Positions 23,076 to 25,535 of a DNA stretch of 64,000 nucleotides are shown one piece after another. The stretch's first letter is position 1. The number at the start of each line of letters is the position of its first letter. The notes under the pieces are model-generated. The model was given only the letters and a program-made list of their open reading frames with translations. It searched no databases and was not told the origin of the DNA. This DNA is from Pseudomonas putida (GTDB lineage: Bacteria; Pseudomonadota; Gammaproteobacteria; Pseudomonadales; Pseudomonadaceae), in contig NZ_CP011789.1 of NCBI RefSeq assembly GCF_001636055.1, forward strand, positions 496,001 through 560,000. Reading direction: 5' to 3'. The translations under genes and the position numbers were made by a program.

Positions 23076-23633
23076 ATGGTGAGCAGTTGGCGTGTGCAAC
23101 AAGCCGCGCGTGAGGTGAAGGCGGGTGCGGTGATCGCCTATCCAACGGAAGCGGTCTGGGGCCTGGGCTGCGACCCGTGGAACGAAGACGCGGTGTACCG
23201 CCTGTTGGCGCTCAAGTCACGCCCTGTGGATAAGGGCCTGATCCTGGTCGCCGACAACATCCGCCAGTTCGACTTCCTGTTCGAGGATTTCCCCGAAGAC
23301 TGGATCGACCGCATGGGCAGCACCTGGCCGGGCCCGAACACCTGGCTGGTGCCGCACCAGGACCTGTTGCCCGAATGGGTGACCGGTCAGCACGATACGG
23401 TGGCGCTGCGGGTCAGCGATCATCCGCAGGTGCGTGAGCTGTGCGCGCTGGTCGGGCCGCTGATCTCCACCTCCGCCAACCCGGCCGGGCGGCCGGCGGC
23501 CAAGAGCCGGTTGCGGGTCGAGCAGTATTTCCACAACCAGCTGGACCTGGTGCTCGGCGGCGCGCTGGGCGGACGCAGGAATCCGAGTGTGATTCGCGAT
23601 CTGGTCACGGGCGAAGTCGTGCGGCCGGGGTGA
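23076..23633 (+). CDS. tsaC: Threonylcarbamoyl-AMP synthase (TsaC/YrdC family)
   Basis: A 185-residue YrdC-domain protein. The KxR-S/TxN type binding residues are found in [28 protein letters not shown] and [12 protein letters not shown]. It makes threonylcarbamoyl-AMP from threonine, bicarbonate and ATP for t6A modification of ANN-decoding tRNAs. It follows dprA by 37 bases, the usual pairing, and is probably co-transcribed with it. Confidence 0.94.
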
Positions 23634-23644
23634 TTGTTCGACAC

Positions 23645-23735
23645 TTGTAGGAGCGGGCTTGCCCGCGAAAAGGCCACCGCGGTGCATGGCACCGGCTCTG
23701 CCGGTGTTCGCGGGACAAGCCCGCTCCCACAGGGG
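23645..23735. repeat. REP pair (BIME-like)
   Basis: Two inverted REP copies: 23645-23675 (GTAGGAGCGGGCTTGCCCGC) and 23707-23735 (TTCGCGGGACAAGCCCGCTC), with a small ACCGGCTCTGCCGGT hairpin between them. It lies just after tsaC. Confidence 0.87.
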
Positions 23736-23910
23736 ATTGGGCTGACCTTTAGATTTTGAGCAAGACAGTTGCTCCTACAAGGGAGAGAGGCACCGCTCAT
23801 CAGGGTTTTCTGATTCTGATCCTCAAGACTGCACATTTCTGACTTAGGGAAATATCCTACGCAGCCTGTCGACCGCCATTACCTTCTCAGTGGGAACGTC
23901 TACCTCTAGG
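23736..23910. other. Gene-free stretch between REP pair and structured leader
   Basis: About 175 bases with no supported ORF. It probably contains the promoter of the small gene at 24107, but I cannot place -35/-10 elements with confidence. Confidence 0.4.
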
Positions 23911-23916
23911 CTCCAG

Positions 23917-24106
23917 ACCGTCGCCGAACAAACTTGGCGATCGGGTGTGGTAACCCGGTGTTTCTGGGGCAATGCCGCTTATGGCGGCTGTGCGCGGGAG
24001 GCTTTTGCCTGCCGGAAATGCCTCCAGTCCGGTTTACCACTCCGCGTACAGCTGCCACCCAACCGTGTGGCAACGAAAGGGTGTCAGCTCCATCACTGGA
24101 GCAATT
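23917..24106 (+). ncRNA. Structured 5' leader of the DUF3077-type gene (candidate cis-regulatory RNA)
   Basis: Pairings read from the sequence: TCGCC/GGCGA (23921-23925 with 23936-23940). A long stem GTGGTAACCCGG/CCGGTTTACCAC (23947-23958 with 24029-24040; 11 pairs, 1 mismatch) encloses two hairpins, GCCGC/GCGGC (23974-23978 with 23984-23988) and GGAGGC/GCCTCC (23997-24002 with 24020-24025). TGCCAC/GTGGCA follows (24053-24058 with 24067-24072). The last hairpin GCTCCA/TGGAGC (24087-24092 with 24097-24102) contains the GGAG ribosome-binding site of the gene. This suggests translation controlled by RNA folding. Promoter and ligand are unknown. Confidence 0.6.
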
Positions 24107-24406
24107 ATGAAGAAGCTAGTCCCCGATCCACCACTCCCCAAAACCACCGCCCACCCCTTCGGCCGCTGCGACGCCGGCCATCCCCCTCTCTTCACCGTCA
24201 ACCCCGACATCGAACCCCACGACGCCTTGGTCCACGTCGCCCTCTACCTACGCTGTGCCTACGACACTGGCATCAAAGCCGTTGACCACCTGAGCGACGG
24301 CGGTCGGGGCATGTTCTGGTCGAGCCTGCATGCCATCGAGCTGGCAGAGGGCCTGGTCGAAGCGATGCTGGATGGGATCGAGTCTGCGGGTAGCCCCCAA
24401 GCCTGA
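24107..24406 (+). CDS. DUF3077-type small protein
   Basis: A 99-residue protein starting MKKLVPDPPLPK, an N-terminus typical of a Pseudomonas small-protein family (DUF3077 or a near relative) that often has many copies per genome. No signal peptide or membrane helix is visible; the C-terminal half is helical (FWSSLHAIELAEGLVEAML). The start is ATG 24107 with GGAG 5 bases upstream. The frame is open to 23972, but that part is the structured leader. The function is unknown. REP clusters flank it on both sides. Confidence 0.75.
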   Translation: MKKLVPDPPLPKTTAHPFGRCDAGHPPLFTVNPDIEPHDALVHVALYLRCAYDTGIKAVDHLSDGGRGMFWSSLHAIELAEGLVEAMLDGIESAGSPQA

Positions 24407-24426
24407 TGACTTGAGCAGAGCCCTCG

Positions 24427-24552
24427 GTGGGAGCGGGCTTGTCGGGGCGACGAACCGCGGTGTGCTTTTCGCGGGCAAGCCCGCTCCTACAGGAACCGCG
24501 CGGCACGCATGAACGGCGCTGAACCTGTAGGAGCGGGCTTGTCCCGCGATGG
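24427..24552. repeat. Cluster of three REP elements
   Basis: REP copies at about 24427-24450 (degenerate, GTCGGGGCGAC), 24467-24492 (TTCGCGGGCAAGCCCGCTCC) and 24525-24552 (GTAGGAGCGGGCTTGTCCCG). They lie between the small DUF3077-type gene and qor, whose 3' end is at 24558. Confidence 0.85.
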
Positions 24553-24557
24553 GGCCC

Positions 24558-25535
24558 TCAGGGCAACAGCACCGTCGACCCCACCGTCTGGCGCGCCGAC
24601 AAGGCCTCCTGCGCTTTCGCCGCCTCGCTCAGCGGATAGCGCTGCTGGATATCCACCACCAGCTTGCCACTGGCAATCATCGCGAACAGGTCATCGGCCA
24701 TGGCCTGGGTGTTCTCGGCGTTATTGGCGTAGCTGGCCAGGGTCGGTCGGGTCACGTACAGCGAGCCCTTCTGCGACAGAATTCCCAGATTCACGCCACT
24801 CACCGCGCCGGAGGCATTGCCGAAGCTCACCATCAAGCCACGCGGGCGCAGGCAGTCGAGCGAAGTCAGCCAGGTGTCGGCACCTACGCCGTCATACACC
24901 ACCGCGCACTTCTTGCCTTCGGTCAGCTCCAGCACACGCTTGGCCACGTCTTCATGGCTGTAGTCGATGGTCGCCCAGGCCCCCAGCGCCTTGGCGCGTT
25001 CGGCTTTTTCGGGCGAGCTGACAGTGCCGATCAGCTTGGCGCCCAAGGCCTTGGCCCATTGGCAAGCCAGCGAGCCGACGCCACCTGCTGCGGCGTGGAA
25101 CAGAATGAAGTCGCCGGGCTGCACCGCGTAGGTCTGCTTGAGCAGGTACTGGGTGGTCAGGCCCTTGAGCATCACGGCCGCAGCCTGCTCGAAGCTGATG
25201 CTGTCAGGCAGCTTCACCAGGTTCGCTTCCGGCAGGGTGTGGTATTCGCCATAGGCGCCCAGCGGCCCGCCGCCGTAGCCGACGCGGTCGCCGACCTTCA
25301 AGCGGGTGACGCCCTCGCCCACCGCATCGACCACACCCGCACCTTCGGTGCCCAGGCCTGAAGGCAGTGATGGCGGCGCGTAGAGCCCGCCACGGAAATA
25401 GGTATCGATGAAATTCAGACCGATCGCATGGTTGCGCACGCGCACCTGCTGCGGGCCGGGCGGTGTCGGTTCGAAGTCCACGAGCTGCAGGACTTCCGGG
25501 CCGCCATGCTGGCTGAACTGAATACGCTTGGCCAT
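24558..25535 (-). CDS. qor: NADPH:quinone oxidoreductase (zinc-independent MDR family)
   Basis: A 325-residue medium-chain dehydrogenase/reductase of the quinone oxidoreductase branch. It has the GroES-like N-terminal domain (HAIGLNFIDTYFRGGLY) and the NADPH motif HAAAGGVGSLACQWAKALGAK; zinc ligands are absent. It catalyses one-electron reduction of quinones with NADPH. The start is the ATG at 25533-25535 with AGGAG 6 bases upstream; a GTG one codon earlier is less likely. It diverges from hemF (133 bases between starts). Confidence 0.93.
   Translation of the reverse strand: MAKRIQFSQHGGPEVLQLVDFEPTPPGPQQVRVRNHAIGLNFIDTYFRGGLYAPPSLPSGLGTEGAGVVDAVGEGVTRLKVGDRVGYGGGPLGAYGEYHTLPEANLVKLPDSISFEQAAAVMLKGLTTQYLLKQTYAVQPGDFILFHAAAGGVGSLACQWAKALGAKLIGTVSSPEKAERAKALGAWATIDYSHEDVAKRVLELTEGKKCAVVYDGVGADTWLTSLDCLRPRGLMVSFGNASGAVSGVNLGILSQKGSLYVTRPTLASYANNAENTQAMADDLFAMIASGKLVVDIQQRYPLSEAAKAQEALSARQTVGSTVLLP

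Follow-up and report, generated by a model that had tools for sequence, protein, structure and literature searches.

A C4-type antisense RNA flanked by two target copies in the leader of a Pseudomonas putida DUF6124 gene, one of many chromosomal units whose seeds and targets vary

The C4 genes of phages P1 and P7 stand in the order c4-icd-ant. In these phages the C4 antisense RNA keeps the antirepressor gene off, as passages of PMC12197685 and PMC5320573 describe. According to the relevant passages of PMC5320573, Acinetobacter baumannii AB5075 has 21 C4-like Group 1 sRNAs, which are apparently processed and of which six are 5'-truncated, and a phage-targeting role is suggested for such RNAs; hence, multicopy chromosomal C4 is not new. 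Salmonella IsrK acts on its own longer transcript, with a small upstream RNA as activator, and in isrK-orf45-anrP of Gifsy-1 the upstream RNA and the downstream ribosome-binding site (RBS) region share complementary sequence, with a small frame before the antirepressor gene (passages of PMC4825925). Parts of the same source describe the P4 CI RNA as a processed antisense RNA between two complementary sites, seqA and seqC. Burkholderia has C4 and isrK in one transcription unit (a passage of PMC4603805), and C4 and c4-a1b1 are both listed in an excerpt of PMC2864571.

We analysed a structured leader and its gene within a window of Pseudomonas putida DNA, by which we mean the whole stretch of 64,000 nucleotides (64 kb). 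The flanking genes are, as we take them from their sequences, tsaC and a quinone oxidoreductase gene (qor). The leader contains a member of the C4 family (Table 1), the only Rfam match above cut-off in the whole 64-kb window, so an element that the sequence-only reading had taken to be possibly undescribed in fact belongs to RF01695. Like the C4 of P1/P7, it scores over the RF01695 cut-off, folds into three stems and has a' and b' segments complementary to sites near the downstream RBS and to an upstream copy. The P1/P7 RNA, however, precedes icd/ant, whereas the window C4 is chromosomal, lies at tsaC-qor before a DUF6124 gene and has many copies per genome. Acinetobacter Group 1 and Pseudomonas both have many chromosomal C4-like RNAs with variable loops, but the variable part is the a' loop in Acinetobacter and the b' seed in the tsaC-qor units, and the passages of PMC5320573 give no downstream target genes or paired sites for the former. 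Compared with isrK (RF01394), the window leader differs in scoring only 26.4 bits against a cut-off of 50 and in having no terminator-like site after this match within 23600-24600. The P4 CI RNA acts by transcription termination and is likened to our unit by description, not by sequence. In kind, the window unit is an ordinary C4 RNA; what sets it apart is the scale, the gene content and the behaviour of the seed.

Table 1. Features of the C4 unit, in window coordinates
Feature	Position	Strand	Remark
Conserved upstream box, GGGAAATATCCTACGC	23847..23862	+	16 bases; probable regulator site
First target copy, c4-a1b1 like, with a1 hairpin	23906..23961	+	RF03163 below cut-off; kept in syntenic orthologues
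a1	23947..23958	+	11/12 bases complementary to a'
b1, CTGGGG	23964..23969	+	complementary to b', one G-U pair
C4 antisense RNA	23977..24062	+	RF01695, 62.1 bits, cut-off 45
C4 main stem	23982-23998 with 24041-24057	+	fold of C4 alone
C4 hairpin 1	23999-24010	+	fold of C4 alone
C4 hairpin 2	24011-24033	+	fold of C4 alone
b', seed GCCTCCAG in C4 hairpin 2	24020..24027	+	CTCCAG end pairs with CTGGAG of SD region
a', CCGGTTTACCAC	24029..24040	+	3' part of hairpin 2 plus linker
a2, GTGGCAA	24067..24073	+	second a target; one mismatch to a'
cis hairpin GCTCCA/TGGAGC around SD	24087..24102 (24087-24092 with 24097-24102)	+	fold; varies in family
b2, CTGGAG	24096..24101	+	overlaps Shine-Dalgarno; b' target
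Small gene, 99 aa, MKKLVPDPP..., DUF6124	24107..24406	+	ATG at 24107; PF19619

The predicted RNA fold of 23900-24125 reaches –98 kcal/mol, while 200 dinucleotide shuffles have a mean of –80.0 (sd 4.5; z –4.0) and none of them folds as well; the earlier impression of several hairpins and far more structure than in an ordinary leader is therefore borne out. The long-range stem around two hairpins is present too, with 16 pairs when the whole leader is folded and 17 when only the C4 is, instead of the 11 counted by eye. In an alignment of 66 C4s, 17 of the 22 RNAalifold pairs carry at least one double-sided, pair-keeping change, so the proposed main stem, which encloses the two hairpins, covaries (hairpin 2, whose loop varies in length, is missing from the RNAalifold consensus). 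Within the predicted fold of the whole leader the C4 forms a closed domain. CCACC falls inside the last 10 nt of 55 of the 66 C4s, and CCA in 63, a 3' end that would be compatible with an RNase P substrate.

Both target regions of a C4 RNA can be recognized around it. As in P1/P7, b' is complementary to the downstream RBS and a' to a site upstream of it, with one mismatch in a2; the a2 site reads mostly GTGGTAA or GTGGTAG in syntenic orthologues. The duplex of the b' seed with b2 (–12.2 kcal/mol) spans positions –13 to –3 relative to the start codon. The upstream copy scores 31.5 bits for RF03163 (c4-a1b1) in a permissive scan of 23800-24450, below the cut-off of 46.7; in position and complementarity it fits a site that works like c4-a1b1. 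Because the leader carries the antisense RNA itself as well as both target copies, the earlier guess of an sRNA target is half right.

The final GCTCCA/TGGAGC stem-loop noticed in the sequence-only reading does exist and holds GGAG, but on its own it does not exceed chance (z –1.45 for the 47 nt of 24063-24109; 15 of 200 shuffles fold as well) and it is inconstant in the family. We compared it with the seed duplex in 42 entries (31 syntenic units and the 11 of the window's genome, the window unit being counted twice), 31 of which have a Shine-Dalgarno sequence (SD) by our rule. Cis pairing takes up most of the SD in 20 of these 31, and the best seed duplex overlaps the SD in 26.

The window's genome has 11 C4s above cut-off, nine of which are followed by a frame starting M[KL]K.VPDPP. 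We paired the b' or a' of each unit with the target regions of all units, both for these 11 and for 55 units of a second genome (G049). Binding of b' to the SD region is much stronger within units than between them (mean –13.95 versus –7.10 kcal/mol, 0 of 20000 permutations); every one of the 11 C4s finds its best or a tied match in its own SD region (11/11 rows, 10/11 columns). The same pairing in G049 gives z-scores of –17.6 (dG) and –21.0 (perfect run), although by dG no more than 28 of the 55 rows there have the own SD target as their best or tied match, so cross-talk is possible. Pairing of b' with the upstream region is also specific to the unit, both in the window's genome (z –4.3 for dG and –5.5 for run; 1 and 0 of 20000 permutations) and in G049 (–11.4 and –15.2). 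The corresponding values for a' are –4.4 and –6.0 (11 units) and –11.9 and –20.2 (G049) with a2, and –6.1 and –5.8 and then –15.4 and –16.6 with the upstream region. Overall, for all four antisense-target combinations in both genomes the observed sum was reached by at most 1 of 20000 permutations. With a longer antisense segment, the downstream target of the window unit came only third among the 11 for its own C4, although the whole set exceeded 100000 permutations.

Orthologous units at the same chromosomal site allow the pairing parts to be followed through change. In a scan of named genomes the protein has 139 relatives; of the best 80 loci, 32 carry a homologue of tsaC or qor in their fetched flank. 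One of the 32 (L258), with whole flanks, a qor-like match only and a 34% identical gene, was set aside by judgement. The 31 loci kept include 27 with both neighbours, three with tsaC only (L206, L209, L210) and one with qor only (L207), these four lying on loci truncated at a contig end. Together with the window they make an alignment of 32 loci, or 31 units once L204 is removed, since the part downstream of its C4 was not recovered. In the 31 units the mean majority-base frequency is 0.97 for the a1 part, 0.90 and 0.94 for the C4 arms and 0.85 for a2, versus 0.63 for b1, 0.62 for the seed and 0.66 for b2. There are 21 distinct seed strings. Seeds pair with b1 and b2 of their own unit to an extent that, on either measure, 0 of 50000 permutations reached (z from –7.3 to –9.1, uncorrected for kinship among the units). 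Similarity among many of the seeds explains why the own target is best or tied in only 7 to 17 of the 21 rows, depending on the measure. When each seed class is represented by a single unit, the observed arrangement ranks first among 720 in each of the four tests; the six automatic classes are crude, and one lumps clearly different seeds. Low conservation of b', b1 and b2 combined with own-unit pairing means that the mutually pairing parts change together between orthologues, while the remaining leader scaffold is conserved.

Taken as a whole, the C4 loop very probably covers the SD by antisense pairing, in cis or in trans, and the earlier view that the leader hides a ribosome-binding site holds in that the RBS is covered. 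We suggest that one transcript, from a putative promoter, would carry in order the target a1-b1, the C4 RNA, the target a2-b2 and the small DUF6124 gene. C4 would fold as its own domain, with b' pairing with b2 in the SD region and a' with a2, so that the gene is left untranslated. By analogy with P1/P7, C4 may be excised by RNase P and would then target full-length transcripts in trans; the first target copy, a1-b1, may serve as a decoy or a second control site. The pairing evidence is equally compatible with cis and trans action, as all pairings are possible within one molecule. It is this that leaves room for an IsrK-type switch in cis, in which C4 stays in the mRNA and shuts its own RBS while a separate short a1b1 RNA activates in trans; Salmonella IsrK, acting on its own longer transcript, is a precedent (passages of PMC4825925), and the leader has a weak isrK match at 23920-23991 in the permissive scan of 23800-24450. 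Against it, no terminator-like site lies between a1b1 and C4, the C4 is a closed domain in the predicted whole-leader fold, and the C4-like RNAs of A. baumannii appear to be processed (in the passages of PMC5320573). We consider such a switch possible, albeit rather unlikely.

The downstream gene had been called DUF3077-type. It scores better as DUF6124 (PF19619), whose cut-off of 27 it just passes with 27.6 bits, than as DUF3077 (PF11275; 16.7 bits, cut-off 21). The 99-aa protein has 68 homologues at E ≤ 0.001 and no match in NCBIfam or PHROGs. Its AlphaFold2 model (mean pLDDT 79, pTM 0.61) has two helices after an N-terminal part of low confidence, and a search of the PDB with this predicted fold returned 294 matches at E ≤ 10, none of them at E ≤ 0.001.

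A widespread, multi-copy element had been expected, and this is what we found. In 59 Pseudomonas genomes (at most 61 candidates scored per genome) C4 occurs at E ≤ 0.001 in 54 and over cut-off in 53, with 997 matches, a median of 14 and a maximum of 54 per genome. In other genomes of the class, with 15 candidates scored per genome, C4 was found in 17 of 273, in at least 1-6 copies, these figures being lower bounds. DUF6124 is present in 47 of the 59 Pseudomonas genomes, and the C4 and DUF6124 counts are correlated (rho 0.88 over 59 genomes, uncorrected for kinship); in detail the window's genome is an exception, with 11 C4s yet 2 DUF6124 matches. Six of its seven DUF3077 places lie 179-381 nt downstream of a C4 on the same strand, while the seventh (L003) has no C4 over cut-off nearby. 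G049 has 55 C4s, 52 of them over cut-off. There 35 of 41 DUF6124 and 5 of 6 DUF3077 places are preceded on their own strand by a C4 no more than 1.5 kb away (chance ∼0.6% per gene), which associates C4 with both families. Conversely, 40 of the 55 C4s have such a gene and 15 do not. Three of the latter units (L057, L086 and L106, the last with a C4 below cut-off) encode Bro-N proteins, and the one scanned, L057, matches antirepressor families in PHROGs. The L086 protein starts with MIKVTPNPP, resembling G049 DUF6124 proteins, and continues into a Bro-N domain, as would be expected if the leader and the first codons could be exchanged together as a module. In L065, L066 and L094, and similarly in L062, L069 and L103, the C4 is followed by another type of small protein, in which a stretch resembles L[FI][IV][DN]T; L065, L066 and L094 were scanned and match no Pfam family.

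The unit is also gained and lost. Among the best 30 of 116 qor loci, 25 include tsaC; the gene is present in 6 of these 25 (partial in L165) and absent from 19, in which the tsaC-qor spacer measures 2-177 nt (13 loci) or 262-541 nt (6 loci). It is present in 3 of the 5 qor loci of this set that lack tsaC. Such turnover at the tsaC-qor site, along with small proteins under antisense control in many copies with different seeds, could also be read as a type I toxin-antitoxin-like role: a harmful small protein would be countered by C4 as antitoxin RNA, so that seeds diversify and addiction maintains the copies. The proposal concerns the role of the unit and not the RNA mechanism; the predicted two-helix fold, with no PDB match at E ≤ 0.001, speaks against it, and we regard it as improbable.

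Decay is seen as well: the window's genome has a decayed C4 unit (L309), the gene in L165 is partial, and the a1b1 score below cut-off together with the a2 mismatch suggests drift in the window unit itself. That the unit is the decaying remnant of a phage switch and no longer has any function is nonetheless very unlikely, considering that pairing is maintained through seed changes in orthologues, the open frame of the gene is retained in aligned relatives and the stems show compensatory changes. A riboswitch or RNA thermosensor, as proposed in the sequence-only reading and as an SD inside a hairpin might suggest, is made extremely improbable by the covariation, C4 being the only Rfam match over cut-off, no riboswitch family of Rfam 15 exceeding its curated cut-off in the 64-kb window, the SD hairpin being inconstant and the variable parts being those that pair with each other.

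The upstream box pattern, GGGAANTAYCCTACGC, has five exact places in the genome (the window unit, L012, L013, L016 and L018), all 127-130 nt before a C4. Up to two mismatches give 14 places, versus 8 for the reversed control; one of the eight two-mismatch places belongs to L014, and the single one-mismatch place is the decayed unit L309 (G000:C1 near 5436303, minus strand), which retains this box together with a1-like and C4 3'-end-like remnants. Unrelated sequence separates these two remnants. A second form of the box, TAGTCC[AG]TTTCCCAAA, stands upstream of L009, L011 and L015, and neither form is found at L008 and L010. The box may be the site of a regulator dedicated to the nine VPDPP units. 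A search of 23600-24600 revealed neither a sigma-70 promoter-like nor a terminator-like site. On both sides of the unit (23650-23740 and 24430-24550) there are several copies of GTAGGAGCGGGCTTGCCCGCG-like repeats. We presume that these are REP-type repeats.

Phage links were sought at several levels. A prophage context for the window unit was considered and rejected, its flanks being the presumed tsaC and quinone oxidoreductase genes. Among 50,697 phage records none matches the window protein; the leader has a single phage match, vB_Pae_U10. In this 10-kb record (L268; also L108) leader-like sequence lies near 2275-2379 between integrase and primase genes, an arrangement that resembles the element around L008 of the window's genome. 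L008 is near Toprim, DUF3631 and phage-integrase genes; the other C4s of this genome were viewed through mechanical ORF lists. A stretch of one G049 unit (L058) has no match in phages. Viral contigs, which may include host flanks, contain 40 stretches with the C4 core pattern; a scan of three proteins encoded downstream assigned two to DUF3077 and the third to DUF6124. The unit probably goes back to a switch of phages or satellites whose copies became numerous in Pseudomonas chromosomes, every one of them having a separate seed.

We also compared chromosomal seeds with the targets of the 40 viral C4 units, using as control a single-base shuffle, which destroys the SD bias common to targets. 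Perfect complements of 7 bases exist for 27 of 66 seeds (shuffled mean 17.1, max 27), of 8 bases for 14 of 66 (4.9, max 12) and of 9 bases for 4 of 66 (1.3, max 6). One could imagine the C4 repertoire as an inherited, sequence-specific RNA immunity, its seeds under diversifying selection because each C4 RNA would also silence invading phages or satellites that share its seed, with DUF6124/DUF3077 proteins released once C4 is titrated away. We offer this as speculation that is probably wrong.

In a literature search made mostly of titles and abstracts, with few subscription journals, we found no report of a C4 expansion in Pseudomonas, of a link to DUF6124/DUF3077 or of joint seed-target change; the passages of PMC4666395, PMC12189769, PMC6978653 and PMC9810633 that bear on the subject do not describe the expansion. 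If our reading is correct, a phage regulator would have given rise to numerous antisense switches on the chromosomes of bacteria, with up to 54 C4 matches per genome in the survey of 59, and two protein families without known function would gain a defined mode of control. The C4 units offer many natural antisense-target pairs for reporter tests, and a single locus at which a seed and two targets switch specificity jointly would amount to a natural experiment on the evolution of antisense specificity.
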